Of a stretch of DNA of 64,000 nt, positions 23,854 through 29,188 are shown piece after piece. Below the pieces are notes generated by a model. It searched no databases and was not told the origin of the DNA. It saw only the letters and a list, made by a program, of their open reading frames with translations. Within the stretch, counting starts at the first letter, position 1. Each line of letters starts with the position of its first letter. Origin of the DNA: Pseudarthrobacter equi (GTDB taxonomy: Bacteria > Actinomycetota > Actinomycetes > Actinomycetales > Micrococcaceae); the NCBI RefSeq assembly GCF_900105535.1, contig NZ_LT629779.1:992001-1056000 (forward strand), written 5' to 3'. The translations under genes were made by a program, and so were the position numbers.

Positions 23854-24002
23854 GTATGTGCCCTATGTCATATTCGGCTATCAGTCTGTACTCTGTGAAC
23901 CGGCTGGTCTTATCGAATTACAAAACCTGTAATTCCCTGTACCAAGCCGGTCGTTTCCGGCCCTCTAATCCTGACAGGCCGGTTCATCGTGAAAGGGTGC
24001 AC

Positions 24003-27000
24003 GTGAAATTAACAGGAAAGAGCCCTGCAAGGGGCGGCGGGTTCCGGAGGGCTGCAGCGTTCTCCGTGGGGATTCCGCTGCTTCTTGGTTCAGTGGCAGC
24101 CGTGCCAGCCACGGCAGCCCCCGCCACGGGGCAGGTTCCGTCGGTCCAGCAGAAGAACCTTGATCCCAAGGACTACCAAGCCGGCCGGTACATCGTGGTA
24201 CTGGCGGAGAAGCCCGCAGCCACCTATGCAGGCGGCACCGGCGACCTGAGCGCTACGAAACCCCAGAGCGGAAAGAAGCTCGACGCCGGGCGGCCCGAGG
24301 TGCAGCGCTACCAGCAGCATCTCGAAACGCAACAGCGCGAGATCGCCAAGGACGAAAGCGTCCAGATCAAACGCAACTTCACCGCCGCCATCAATGGCTT
24401 CGCCGCGGATCTCTCCGCCGACCAGGCGCTGAAGCTGGCCAAGGATCCGAAGGTCCTCATGGTGGCGCCGGATACCGAGAACGCGCCGGACTACTCCACC
24501 ACCGATTTCCTTCAGCTCTCCGGCCCGCAAGGCATCTGGAATACATCCTTCGGTGGCACGGAGAACGCCGGCAAGGGCGTTGTGGTGGGAGTCATCGACT
24601 CCGGCTACACCCCCTCCAGCCCTTTCTTCGCCGGAACCGACGTCAAGCCGCTGGCCGGAAACCCCGAGGTGGGCGTGCCCTACCGGACAGCAGACGGCAA
24701 GATCGCCATGTTGAAGTCCGACGGCGACACGTTCGTGGGCGAATGCCAAAAAGGCGAAGGCACCGGGGCAGCTTTCGACGGCAGTGCCTGCAACTCCAAG
24801 GTCCTCAGCGCCCGCTACTTCGCCGACGACTTCAAGAAGTACGTCCCGGAGGCCAACCGTGCCCCCGAGGAAGTGCTCTCTCCCGTTGACGTCGGAAGCC
24901 ACGGCACCCACACCGCCAGCACCGCAGCCGGAAACGCGAACGTCAGGGCCAACCTTGGCGGCCGCGACATGGGCATCACAGGCGGCGTCGCTCCGGCGGC
25001 CAAACTCTCCATCTACAAGGTCTGCTGGGAAGACACCGACCCCAACACCGGCGGCTGCTACAGCTCCGCATCGGTGGCCGCCATCAACCAGGCGATCCTG
25101 GACGGCGTGGATGTCCTGAACTACTCCATTTCGGGCAGCACCTCCACCACCACGGACCCAGTTGCTTTGGCGTTCCTCTCCGCAGCCTCAGCCGGAGTCT
25201 TCGTTTCCGCCTCCGCAGGCAACAGCGGCCCCACGGCCAGCACCGTGAACCACGGCGCACCATGGCTCACCACTGTCGCTGCCTCGTCCTTCTCCACCGA
25301 GCTGCAGGGAACTGTTGAATTCGAGGACGGCAGCAAGTACCGCGGTGCCAGCCTGATGGCCAACAACGTCCCGGCCAGCCCGCTGGTCCTCGCAGCATCG
25401 GCTGCAGCAGCAGGAGCCGCAAGCCCCGAACTCTGCGGACCGAACACACTGGACCCCGCCAAGGTGGCCGGCAAAATCGTTGTCTGTGACAGGGGAGTTG
25501 TTGACCGCGTTGCCAAGAGTGCCGAGGTCAAGCGCACCGGCGGCGTCGGCATGATCCTCGTCAACGTCACCCCGTCCTCCGAGGACGTGGACCAGCACGC
25601 CGTACCCACTGTCCACGTGAATCCGCCGGCAACGCAGCAGATCAAGGACAAGCTGGCGGCCAACCCCGCCATCAAAGCCGCGCTGGTGAACAAAGACACC
25701 ACCGGCCTGCCGCAGGAGCCCCAGCCGCAGATCGCCGGATTCTCCTCACGAGGCCCGCTGCTGGCCACCGACTCCGACCTGCTGAAGCCGGACGTCGCCG
25801 CTCCCGGCGTCGCCGTGCTGGCCGGTGTCTCTCCCATCGGTGAAGCCGGCGCCCAGTTCGGCATGATGTCCGGCACATCGATGGCCGCCCCGCACGTGGC
25901 AGGCTTCGGTGCGCTGGTCCTGGGCAAGAACCCCACCTGGTCTCCCGCCACGGTCAAGTCAGCCATGATGACCACCGCTACGGACGTCAAGAACGCGGAC
26001 GGCAGCCGCAACACAGATGTCTTCGCCACCGGCGCAGGCCAGGTGTCCGTTGCCAAGGTCCTGGACCCGGGCCTGGTGTACGACGCCAACGAGACCGACT
26101 ACCTGAAGTTCATCCAGGGAACCGGACTGGACCTGGGCATCCCGGATCTGGGAACCACCGCGCCGCGCGACATGAATGTGGCCTCGTTTGCGCTGGGCTC
26201 ACTGACCGGCAGGCCTGAGGTCACCCGCACGGTGACCGCGCTGACCCCCGGCCTGTACCGCGCCCAGGTGAACGTGCCGGGCGTCAAGGTCACCGTGACC
26301 CCCTCGATCCTGAACTTCAGCGCGGTGGGCGAAAAGCGGACGTTCAAGGTCAAGTTCGAAAACGCCTCCGCCCCCACGGGCCAGTTCGCCATGGGCAGCC
26401 TGGTCTGGCAGGGTGCCGGCAAGAATGTCGCTTCACCGGTAGCGGTCCGTCCGCAGTCCGTAGTGGCGCCGGCGAATGCCGCCTTCAGCTCAGTGGGCGG
26501 GACCGGCCAGGGGAAGATTCCCGTGGTGTCCGGAACCAACGCACCGGTCAGCATGACGGTGGACGGCCTGTCCAAGGCGGATTCAACTGCCGTGGAACTG
26601 GTTCCCGGGCCGCTGGCCCTGGCGAACAACACCTCCAACGCCATGAAGCAGGTGACGGTGGCGGCGGGTTCGCCGCTGGCCAAGTTCTCCGTCTTCTCCT
26701 CGGACGAGAACGCTGACTTCGATCTCCTGGTGTTCACTCCGGATGGGAAGCAGTTGGCCTCCCAGACGGTGTCCGCCAGCGAATCGGTGTCCGTCAGCAA
26801 TCCCAAGGCCGGCGTGTACACAATGTTCGCCAACCTCTACGCCAGCCCTAACGGCCAGCCCACCAAGGCATCATTGGATGCTGCGGTCCTGGGTGCCAAC
26901 ATGGGCAACGCCTCGGTCAGCCCGAACCCGCTTCGGCTGGCGAACGGTACTGCCGGTGACGTGACGTTGTCGTGGCAGAACCTTGAACCGGGCTCCTACA

Positions 27001-27194
27001 TCGGCCGGGTCAACTATTCCGGGGGTGCCACTCCCACCTTTGTCTCGGTGGTGGTAACCCCGGGTGCCGGTGCCGTGGTCCCGGATGACGAGCAGACAGA
27101 CCCGGGCAAGAAGGACAAGAAGGACAAGGTCAAGAAGGAAAAGAAGAAGAAGGAGTTCCAGGACGAATCGGGGAGCTCCAACCTGGGGATCTAG
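24003..27194 (+). CDS. Secreted S8 subtilisin-family serine peptidase
   Basis: 1063 residues from GTG 24003 with AAAGG six bases upstream. Signal peptide about 1-39, inhibitor I9-like propeptide about 60-155 (YIVVLAEKP, NGFAADLSADQALKLAKDP), and an S8 domain with D199 (VIDSGYT), H300 (GSHGTHT), N407 (AGNSGP) and S626 (GTSMAAPH). A PA domain is inserted at about 470-560. A fibronectin-like region and a pre-peptidase-like C-terminal domain (about 850-960) follow. The end is a lysine-rich repeat (KKDKKDKVKKEKKKKEF), perhaps for wall attachment. It faces an operon with two subtilisin-inhibitor paralogues. Confidence 0.93.
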   Translation: MKLTGKSPARGGGFRRAAAFSVGIPLLLGSVAAVPATAAPATGQVPSVQQKNLDPKDYQAGRYIVVLAEKPAATYAGGTGDLSATKPQSGKKLDAGRPEVQRYQQHLETQQREIAKDESVQIKRNFTAAINGFAADLSADQALKLAKDPKVLMVAPDTENAPDYSTTDFLQLSGPQGIWNTSFGGTENAGKGVVVGVIDSGYTPSSPFFAGTDVKPLAGNPEVGVPYRTADGKIAMLKSDGDTFVGECQKGEGTGAAFDGSACNSKVLSARYFADDFKKYVPEANRAPEEVLSPVDVGSHGTHTASTAAGNANVRANLGGRDMGITGGVAPAAKLSIYKVCWEDTDPNTGGCYSSASVAAINQAILDGVDVLNYSISGSTSTTTDPVALAFLSAASAGVFVSASAGNSGPTASTVNHGAPWLTTVAASSFSTELQGTVEFEDGSKYRGASLMANNVPASPLVLAASAAAAGAASPELCGPNTLDPAKVAGKIVVCDRGVVDRVAKSAEVKRTGGVGMILVNVTPSSEDVDQHAVPTVHVNPPATQQIKDKLAANPAIKAALVNKDTTGLPQEPQPQIAGFSSRGPLLATDSDLLKPDVAAPGVAVLAGVSPIGEAGAQFGMMSGTSMAAPHVAGFGALVLGKNPTWSPATVKSAMMTTATDVKNADGSRNTDVFATGAGQVSVAKVLDPGLVYDANETDYLKFIQGTGLDLGIPDLGTTAPRDMNVASFALGSLTGRPEVTRTVTALTPGLYRAQVNVPGVKVTVTPSILNFSAVGEKRTFKVKFENASAPTGQFAMGSLVWQGAGKNVASPVAVRPQSVVAPANAAFSSVGGTGQGKIPVVSGTNAPVSMTVDGLSKADSTAVELVPGPLALANNTSNAMKQVTVAAGSPLAKFSVFSSDENADFDLLVFTPDGKQLASQTVSASESVSVSNPKAGVYTMFANLYASPNGQPTKASLDAAVLGANMGNASVSPNPLRLANGTAGDVTLSWQNLEPGSYIGRVNYSGGATPTFVSVVVTPGAGAVVPDDEQTDPGKKDKKDKVKKEKKKKEFQDESGSSNLGI

Positions 27195-27239
27195 GCGCCA
27201 GCCTCCCAGGAGGCCCGGAGCCTGAATAACCGGACAACT

Positions 27240-27275
27240 GATGGCCGGCGGACCGACTGCGATCCGCCGGCCATC
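27240..27275 (+). terminator. Hairpin terminator of the subtilase gene
   Basis: GATGGCCGGCGGA (27240-27252) pairs perfectly with TCCGCCGGCCATC (27263-27275), then CTTGTCTT. It lies between convergent genes. Confidence 0.75.
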
Positions 27276-27302
27276 CTTGTCTTGGGCCGGGTAACCGTCC
27301 GC

Positions 27303-27680
27303 CTAGGTAGTACCGGCGGCTCCGGCAGTTCCGCCCAGCAGTGGAGCAAGGGCCCGCCACCGGGAAATCTCGCAACCATCGGTCAGGGTCAGCGTCGTGT
27401 GAACACGCCTGCCCTGGAACGTCCCCGTGACGACGGCCTGCTGGGGCCCGCCATACTGCTGGGTACACAGGCGCGGCGGCCCGGGTTCCGGGAAGAAGAT
27501 CGCAGGTCCGTGTTTCAGGACAGCGTCGAGGGCGGCCTGCGGGTCCGGTACGGTCGAGCCGGGGGACACCTTGCCGTGGCTGGCCTGCAGGGTGAATTTA
27601 TGGTGCGGGCCGTCAGGCGTTTCGCTGAGGTTGATGACCAGGTGGACGGATCCGGGGTCAGGCTGCGCCTTGTTCTCCAT
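27303..27680 (-). CDS. SSI-like subtilisin inhibitor paralogue without signal peptide
   Basis: 125 residues from ATG 27678-27680 with AAAGGAGA upstream. Residues 10-118 match the Streptomyces subtilisin inhibitor (I16) fold: LCTQQYGGP (71-79) is the reactive-loop region, then VVTGTFQGRRVHTTL and DGCEISRWRAL. Only the second disulfide pair of SSI (C72, C103) remains; the positions of the first pair are occupied by alanine-type residues. There is no signal peptide, so the protein should stay in the cytoplasm. It overlaps the upstream gene by 23 bases. Confidence 0.75.
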   Translation of the reverse strand: MENKAQPDPGSVHLVINLSETPDGPHHKFTLQASHGKVSPGSTVPDPQAALDAVLKHGPAIFFPEPGPPRLCTQQYGGPQQAVVTGTFQGRRVHTTLTLTDGCEISRWRALAPLLGGTAGAAGTT

Positions 27681-28620
27681 GGACTTCTCCTTTCGCGGAC
27701 CTGGTGGTCTCGCCTGTGGCCTCCGCCAAAGACGCTGCCAGCCGGCCCCGGAGTATTGCGGCTTCCTGGGCAAAGCCACGCTGCCGGGCAACGTAGTCGG
27801 CCTTTCCATCGGTGGTCTCAATCCGGATGGGCGGGTAGCCCCAGCCGGCGAGGTCGTAGGGGGAGGCCTGCATATCCATGGCGCGGATCCGCCAGGAGAG
27901 CTCGAAGCAGTCCATGACCAGCTCGCTCGGAAGTGCCGGAAGCAGCTTGTAGGCCCACTTGTAGAGGTCCATGTTGGCATGCAGGCAGCCGGGCTGTTCC
28001 ATGTGCCGTTGGGAGTCCCGGGTAGGCAGGTGCTCATTGAGCGGCAACGCATCAGGAGTATAGAAGCGGAACGCATCAAAGTGGGTGCAGCGGATGCGGT
28101 TATCCTCCACCACCTGGTCGGTTCCCTCCGAACCCAGGCGCAGTTTCAGGTATTCGTGGCGCAGATCGAACTTGTCCTGGCGGTACACCATGGCCCATTC
28201 GTGCAGGCCAAAGCAGCCGAACTGGGCAGGCCTTGCCGCGGTTCCGCGCAGGATGATCTCCGCGAAGGCCACCGCGTCCGCACGGTCGGCCAGGAAGGCG
28301 GCCCGGTCGAAGGTGACCGCCGTGCTTCCCGCAGGCAGGCCGAGCGCAGCCAGTTCGCCGTCGTCGAGCACCCGGTAGTGCTTCCAACCGCGCCGGGCCT
28401 CGCCCGCGCTGCCCGCGAGGACGGTTCCGGCGCCCGGGTGCCAGCGGCGAAGCTGACCCGGTTTTTGCGTGTAGTAGGTGAAGAGGAAGTCCTCCACCGG
28501 ATGTTTCCGTCCGGCGGACCTCCGCTCCAAATAGGGATCCGCGTAGCGGCCGACGCGCAGCTGGTGGGCCTCTTCCCTCGCCCGCCACTCGTTGGCCGCA
28601 AGGAGCTTAAGTTGCTCCAC
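27658..28620 (-). CDS. Conserved protein usually annotated 3-methyladenine DNA glycosylase
   Basis: 320 residues from GTG 28618-28620, with GGGAGG six bases upstream. I recall this family as the actinobacterial '3-methyladenine DNA glycosylase', with blocks HPVEDFLFTYYTQKPGQLRRWHPG (split), FGCFGLHEWAMVYR and GCLHANMDLYKWAYKL. It has none of the AlkA helix-hairpin-helix, Tag or MPG signatures that I know, so the glycosylase name is not supported here. Histidines and tryptophans are abundant and could bind metal. It overlaps both SSI-like genes, so all three are co-translated. Confidence 0.6.
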   Translation of the reverse strand: MEQLKLLAANEWRAREEAHQLRVGRYADPYLERRSAGRKHPVEDFLFTYYTQKPGQLRRWHPGAGTVLAGSAGEARRGWKHYRVLDDGELAALGLPAGSTAVTFDRAAFLADRADAVAFAEIILRGTAARPAQFGCFGLHEWAMVYRQDKFDLRHEYLKLRLGSEGTDQVVEDNRIRCTHFDAFRFYTPDALPLNEHLPTRDSQRHMEQPGCLHANMDLYKWAYKLLPALPSELVMDCFELSWRIRAMDMQASPYDLAGWGYPPIRIETTDGKADYVARQRGFAQEAAILRGRLAASLAEATGETTRSAKGEVHGEQGAA

Positions 28621-29188
28621 CGGCGCCTCCCAGTATGTCTTTCGCGGCGTCCCAGGCGCTGATCTCGCAACCGTCCGTGCGGGCGAAGGATGCTTCGACG
28701 GCGGTTCCGTCAACCACTCCGCTCACGGTCGCCTTTTCCGGTCCGCCATATTGCTGGGTGCAGGCCTGGGCCGTGCGGGGCGCCGGGTTCAGCAGGGCCG
28801 AATTCCGTTTGAGGGCGGCGCAGGCGGCGTCGGCCGTCGGGTGGCTGCTTTCGCCTGCCGGCACTCCGGCTTCGCACACCAGCGTGTAGTTGACTGCGGC
28901 TTGGCCTTCAGCCGGAATGACAGTGATGGCAAGTTCGGCATTGCCCTGGCCAGGCCCGGCAGGCAGCGCGGACGGGGAAGCGGGCGGCGGGGCCGGAACT
29001 GACGTTTCGGTGTCCGGGGACGGAGTGGCTGTTGACGGGGGCGCGGTTGCCGAAGACGTGGCGGAGGAGGTTGGCGACGGAGCCGGGGACGTGGACGGCG
29101 GGTTGCCGCCGTCCGGGCCACCGGTGCAGGCGGAGAGCAGCCCCGCGGTGACGGCAAGGGCCGCTAGGTGAAGCCGCACGTTACGCAT
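28607..29188 (-). CDS. SSI-domain lipoprotein (subtilisin-type protease inhibitor)
   Basis: 193 residues from ATG 29186-29188. A lipoprotein signal ends in LLSAC (C21). A Thr/Pro/Ser-rich spacer (about 25-80) lifts the domain from the membrane. The C-terminal SSI domain keeps all four cysteines (LVCEAG, DAACAAL, ACTQQYGGP, DGCEIS). By analogy with SSI the residue after C-T would be P1, here glutamine. It would act outside the cell on subtilisin-like enzymes such as the adjacent peptidase. An alternative ATG is at 29203. Its stop lies 14 bases inside the next gene. Confidence 0.8.
   Translation of the reverse strand: MRNVRLHLAALAVTAGLLSACTGGPDGGNPPSTSPAPSPTSSATSSATAPPSTATPSPDTETSVPAPPPASPSALPAGPGQGNAELAITVIPAEGQAAVNYTLVCEAGVPAGESSHPTADAACAALKRNSALLNPAPRTAQACTQQYGGPEKATVSGVVDGTAVEASFARTDGCEISAWDAAKDILGGAGGAT

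Follow-up and report, generated by a model that had tools for sequence, protein, structure and literature searches.

A subtilase locus of Pseudarthrobacter equi with an exported SSI-type inhibitor and a signal-less SSI variant predicted to remain in the cytoplasm

Organisation of the locus

The window analysed here is a 64,000-nucleotide (nt) stretch of the 4.46 Mb genome of Pseudarthrobacter equi (contig NZ_LT629779.1, positions 992,001 to 1,056,000), the closest protein relatives being from Arthrobacter and Pseudarthrobacter. Within it, a gene for an S8 peptidase (subtilase) converges with a three-gene operon on the opposite strand, read in the order U, middle gene and S (Table 1). U and S are related to the Streptomyces subtilisin inhibitor SSI (MEROPS I16), a textbook extracellular inhibitor whose cysteine pairs are numbered Cys35-50 and Cys71-101. 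U is a predicted lipoprotein, while S carries no recognisable export signal but keeps a reactive loop that does not vary across the genus; this points to the recruitment of an export-type inhibitor to a task in the cytoplasm.

The middle gene probably starts at GTG 28620 behind a GGAGG and overlaps U by 14 nt; S starts at ATG 27680 behind an AGGAG and overlaps the middle gene by 23 nt. Both Shine-Dalgarno-like sequences lie inside the preceding gene. A preliminary description, made from the DNA letters alone, had a secreted 1063-residue S8 peptidase converging on three overlapping genes, and the coordinates, the Pfam domains and the two overlaps agree with it.

Table 1. Features of the subtilase-inhibitor locus, in positions of the window.
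Feature	Position	Strand	Evidence
S8 subtilase: I9 propeptide, PA insert, fn3_6, lysine-rich C-terminal tail	24003..27194	+	Pfam
U: lipoprotein with four-cysteine SSI domain	28607..29188 (ATG 29188; in-frame ATG also 29203)	-	Pfam SSI, phmmer to SSI chains, lipobox LSAC
U reactive-loop segment CTQQYGGP, P1 either Q	28739..28762	-	alignments, DNA
Middle gene: presumably cytosolic protein	27658..28620 (GTG start likely; open frame reaches TTG 28713)	-	
S: SSI-fold protein without signal, 125 aa; loop-flanking cysteine pair only	27303..27680	-	
S reactive-loop segment CTQQYGGP, invariant	27444..27467	-	aligned rows and loci
S second retained cysteine, presumably paired with the loop cysteine (27465-27467)	27372..27374	-	invariant in 121/121 rows

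The exported inhibitor U

The SSI domain of U scores above the Pfam cut-off for PF00720 (26.1 versus 23.9 bits), and four cysteines are found in 39 of 39 rows. A lipobox is present in 39 of 41 rows, the remaining two being broken frames; this is a corrected count, as an earlier pattern overlooked LPAC and included one false match. The lipobox (LSAC in the window), the Pfam call and the cysteine count thus uphold the first operon gene as a lipoprotein with a four-cysteine SSI domain, and by its lipobox U should be membrane-anchored, in which it differs from Streptomyces SSI. Placed on the outer face of the membrane, U would most likely block, by the canonical mechanism, the secreted S8 peptidase or similar surface proteases. 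The membrane-tethered self-protection that was proposed for this locus fits U as predicted. A weak match of U to a set of defence systems (E 0.019) falls in the linker region.

S lacks an export signal and the first cysteine pair

In none of 75 genus loci (73 distinct, since two genomes are held twice) did S have an upstream in-frame start followed by a hydrophobic 12-mer, and in eight of them fewer than 20 residues separate the in-frame stop from the domain. Among 120 S relatives, listed among 242 database matches (set A1 used 41 of the 120), peak hydrophobicity over the first 45 residues has a median of 0.80 and a highest value of 2.12. From the missing signal-like start we infer that S should stay in the cytoplasm, as the preliminary description held.

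A cytoplasmic inhibitor of a subtilase has been reported in IPI of Bacillus subtilis. According to an excerpt of PMC3901451, IPI has an unrelated, Ig-like fold and its cytoplasmic nature has been questioned on account of a signal-peptide-bearing start further upstream. No such start was seen in the frames of S, and an overlooked exported protein of the kind argued for IPI is ruled out over the 75 loci.

S has two cysteines in 32 of 40 rows, three in seven and four in one. The second, loop-flanking pair is kept in 121 of 121 aligned rows and the first pair is absent; at least four cysteines occur in all SSI rows compared, namely 25 from genes downstream of the middle gene in related genera, 39 of U and 17 others. 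The constancy of the retained pair suggests a continuing function in the cytosol.

Pfam PF00720 called no family on the S of the window, and 12 of 42 aligned relatives matched Pfam SSI weakly (best E 0.0014). The best profile match in the Protein Data Bank (PDB) was sermetstatin/ScNPI (E 0.017). The structure predicted for S has an SSI fold, rather than one unlike SSI, and its nearest structural matches are the sermetstatin entries (4hwx, 4hx2, 4hx3), complexes among them, and SSTI (6i0i), from which S differs by a missing cysteine pair and the absence of an export signal. The earlier assignment of the last gene as SSI-like, with two cysteines and no signal peptide, is thus supported by predicted fold and phylogeny, though Pfam itself makes no SSI call. 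As S is missing the export signal and the first cysteine pair, we file it as an SSI variant and not as a standard member. The gene is already annotated, the NCBI name of S relatives being ‘serine protease inhibitor’. It is under purifying selection, with a median pairwise ratio of non-synonymous to synonymous substitution rates (dN/dS) of 0.22 (U 0.28; middle gene 0.14). Three loci with broken frames or an interrupted middle gene (L082, L091 and L103) were left out of the dN/dS and the gene-overlap counts.

Among the literature matches listed (titles and abstract openings), none dealt by title with a signal-less SSI or with this operon.

The reactive loop of S is unchanged across the genus

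U and S of the window share the loop CTQQYGGP, as first described; with the cysteines matched, it is one residue longer than that of Streptomyces SSI (3ssi, 2sic). In S this loop does not vary: all 40 tree rows have it, as do all 121 database rows aligned and all 75 loci. U, in contrast, has seven loop sequences in 39 rows, the first Q position being taken by Q, E or M and the second by Q or R; ten variants occur in the 25 downstream lipoprotein SSI rows (L111 and L185 being identical) and eleven in the 17 other SSI rows. CTQQYGGP is the commonest loop of the exported downstream relatives (12 of 25 rows). On the tree, the loop never changed in S but did so 10 times in U, against similar totals of domain changes, 559 and 543 respectively (Fisher p 0.0008). 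An unchanging loop of this kind points to one fixed partner.

A glutamine at P1, as initially expected, is obtained in every alignment, but which one is unsure because the alignments disagree: P1 is the first Q with cysteines matched (2tld) and the second Q in an ungapped alignment with 3sic and in the sermetstatin alignment of S.

Distribution and synteny

An S-type match (E <= 7.3e-32) came from 146 of the 150 genomes of the genus that were searched. Two incomplete genomes gave a U-type match only (G174) and no match (G264). The order S, middle gene, U is present in 40 of 40 fetched loci, which include two with broken frames (L082, L091) and one with an interrupted middle gene (L103); a chance neighbourhood is ruled out by this order. 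The S8 gene lies at most 700 nt from S in 37 of the 40 and 1.8-5 kb away in the other three, so that the operon and its synteny with S8 are conserved.

SSI genes flank the middle gene on both sides in 35 of 80 named loci, and 34 of these have S8 in the stretch; in the exception, L147, S8 is matched at another place in the genome. At the other loci with full flanks, which are from related genera, S8 is present in 14 of 20 with SSI and in 0 of 20 without (Fisher p 3e-6, kinship ignored). This count covers 40 of 45 loci; L177, L191, L192, L197 and L201 were left out for short flanks. That S8 presence tracks SSI at these loci speaks for a functional connection of exported SSI with S8. As to whether S8 or the middle protein is the partner of S, co-occurrence is useless because S8 is matched in all 150 genus genomes searched (E <= 1e-100).

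Two of the loci, L157 and L177, are titled Sporosarcina and Acidobacteria; they are Micrococcaceae-like and probably mislabelled or contaminated.

Origin of S and U

In related genera, the SSI gene downstream of the middle gene encodes a product with a lipoprotein signal by eye in all 25 rows, and a start-codon lipoprotein pattern matched 21 of them. These exported Micrococcaceae lipoproteins (e.g. L162, L173, L178) occupy the same place as S and are its probable kin, differing in their lipoprotein signal and fuller set of cysteines.

Two trees were computed, a quick and a careful one. L163, absent from the first, was added in the second, and L182 and L198 were dropped from the second, which contained 13 of 40 S, 14 of 39 genus U and 5 of 17 other SSI rows. 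L082 was dropped from the S and U rows and L091 from the U rows. S forms one clade (support by the Shimodaira-Hasegawa-like approximate likelihood ratio test, SH-aLRT, 98 in the quick tree; 99/96 in the careful tree) and genus U another (99; 96/93). The careful tree places U with an upstream-placed Sinomonas SSI and the downstream-placed L191 and L201 (98/94), and S with the remaining downstream lipoproteins at support that is not decisive (86/78 and 90/84). In the quick tree, U rather than S was joined to the A. agilis-type lipoproteins (81). The two trees thus disagree on how S, U and the downstream lipoproteins branch. That S arose by recent duplication of U inside the genus is disfavoured (approximately unbiased test, p 0.0395).

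S probably descended from a downstream exported lipoprotein SSI. The simplest story starts from two exported SSI lineages; on a single occasion, in the genus ancestor, the downstream one would have shed its first cysteine pair along with the signal peptide. We consider it very probable, from the sequences compared, that one SSI of an old Micrococcaceae subtilase-inhibitor locus was relocated in this way from the surface to the cytoplasm.

The S of the window sits on an unusually long branch (0.62) in its clade, with its loop unchanged.

The middle protein

The protein encoded between U and S has at least 8000 relatives. Its AlphaFold model is confident (pLDDT 90, pTM 0.89), yet no sequence family was found for it in Pfam, NCBIfam or PDB, and Foldseek gave no significant PDB fold match; the VIA rows obtained for it resemble common helical arrangements. 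Cys136, Cys178, Cys212, His40, His61, His140, Glu141, His180, Asp182 and His214 are invariant in 52 aligned rows and look like metal ligands. NCBI names the protein ‘3-methyladenine DNA glycosylase’, a name for which these searches gave no support. The middle-gene alignment used 51 of 73 usable sequences, 7 of the 80 middle genes being unusable. In the segment YRQDKFDLRHEY of this protein, two near-adjacent changes are fixed in the genus, N to F and I/V to L (placement by eye).

Candidate partners of S

The explanation that we favour combines the relocation of S and the outer role of U with a single internal partner: inside the cell, S would present its unchanged loop to one unvarying protein, with the translationally coupled middle protein as first choice. 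We give it a probability of about one in three, lowered from 0.35 because of a genome with an interrupted middle gene. S would be translated where the middle gene ends, which makes the middle protein the most likely candidate, if a tentative one; the S8 precursor and another cytosolic protease come after it by a small distance, on a level with each other. The stop and start of middle gene and S overlap by 4 nt (-4) in 26 of 38 loci, starts being set by the Shine-Dalgarno rule. Evolutionary rates point the same way: over 53 of 76 loci (54 have all six genes, and one near-copy was dropped), partial correlations with two background genes removed were r 0.31 for S and the middle gene, 0.24 for S and U, and 0.23 for the middle gene and S8. 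S and S8 gave r 0.07 (p 0.06), falling to 0.00 once the middle gene was removed.

Several observations weigh against this explanation. In Arthrobacter sp. MA-N2 (L103/L188) about 1.4 kb separates two pieces of the middle gene, and S and U are intact. The middle gene occurs in 116 of 149 genomes of the order versus 31 with an SSI match, and changes fixed in the genus are not in excess in its protein (3 of 274 columns versus 10 of 426 in aspartokinase). Some exported relatives also begin a few nt from the middle-gene stop, from which it follows that the operon predates the relocation. The tie between S and the middle gene raised in the preliminary description is therefore borne out by the short overlap and the rate covariation but weakened by the age of the operon, the lack of excess changes and the one interrupted gene. 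As to the fold of S, its match is good by rank but loose in fit (template modelling score about 0.5, root mean square deviation 4-6), and as to its location, one of the 120 relatives reaches the hydrophobicity of 2.12. In both G169 and G277, the S match is spread across two frames. The link of exported SSI with S8 is affected by Arthrobacter sp. 35W, which has SSI and no S8 match in its genome, by the ‘Sporosarcina’ record, which has S8 elsewhere and no SSI at the locus, and by a rate covariation of U and S8 that is weak too (r 0.08). A new role for S, as first suggested, would be compatible with these results, and a retained inhibitor function inside the cell equally so.

Such a retained function could be that of a safety inhibitor, S catching S8 molecules that fold or become activated before export and U doing the same outside. 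S8 is matched in all and S in nearly all of the genus genomes searched, the two genes lie close together in nearly all loci, S has kept what is the commonest loop of its exported relatives, and Bacillus IPI has been reported to inhibit a subtilisin inside the cell (excerpt of PMC3901451). We nevertheless find this doubtful: the S8 peptidase already has its own I9 propeptide, its rate covariation with S is not clear, and U, which presumably faces the same enzyme, varies its loop whereas S does not. Inhibition of another cytosolic protease, of the serine or the metallo type, is just as doubtful. The unchanging loop of S would suit an endogenous target, and the closest folds include sermetstatin bound to snapalysin, a metalloprotease, and to subtilisin, as well as SSTI, titled a subtilisin and TAMP inhibitor; no cytosolic subtilase is present, however, among the four S8 enzymes found in the genome, other protease families not having been searched.

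It is unlikely that S is a plain binding module devoid of inhibitor activity, with a loop that stays constant for the sake of folding or dimerisation. Constancy in S extends to many columns around the loop, and the cysteines on either side of it have both persisted in what is normally a reducing compartment, but the same loop varies in U, a domain of the same kind. Slightly less probable still, we think, is that S is a thiol-gated regulatory subunit. The lost cysteine pair would have mattered only outside the cell and the kept pair would clamp the reactive loop; cytosolic oxidation could then lock this loop and let S switch the metal-binding-looking middle protein on or off. If true, a protease inhibitor would have turned into a redox-controlled, non-protease regulator. 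That S leaves the cell by an unidentified route and acts outside like U is hardly credible. It retains the loop and one cysteine pair of an extracellular SSI, but the search for signal-like starts speaks against export, as do the loss of the first pair and the two cysteines of most S rows.

The locus offers a clean natural experiment on the re-use of an inhibitor: in a near-universal gene of the genus an SSI would have moved inside, its loop frozen while that of its exported sister varies. The loop and the retained cysteine pair make up an exact set of residues for testing, and the middle protein an exact candidate partner. The locus also draws attention to a widespread, conserved family of middle proteins that goes by an unsupported name.

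The S8 peptidases

The S8 gene of the window has a GTG start and a longer ATG frame beginning at 23856. Pfam assigned Peptidase_S8 (155 bits) together with I9, PA and fn3_6, and the N-terminus is signal-like by eye, as it is in all four S8 enzymes found in the genome. Among the matches listed, the genus S8 peptidases adjoining S fall into identity bands of 57-62, 66-73 and at least 79 percent to that of the window. A second S8 gene lies on the opposite side of the operon, upstream of U, in L077, L093, L142, L143, L144 and L199.

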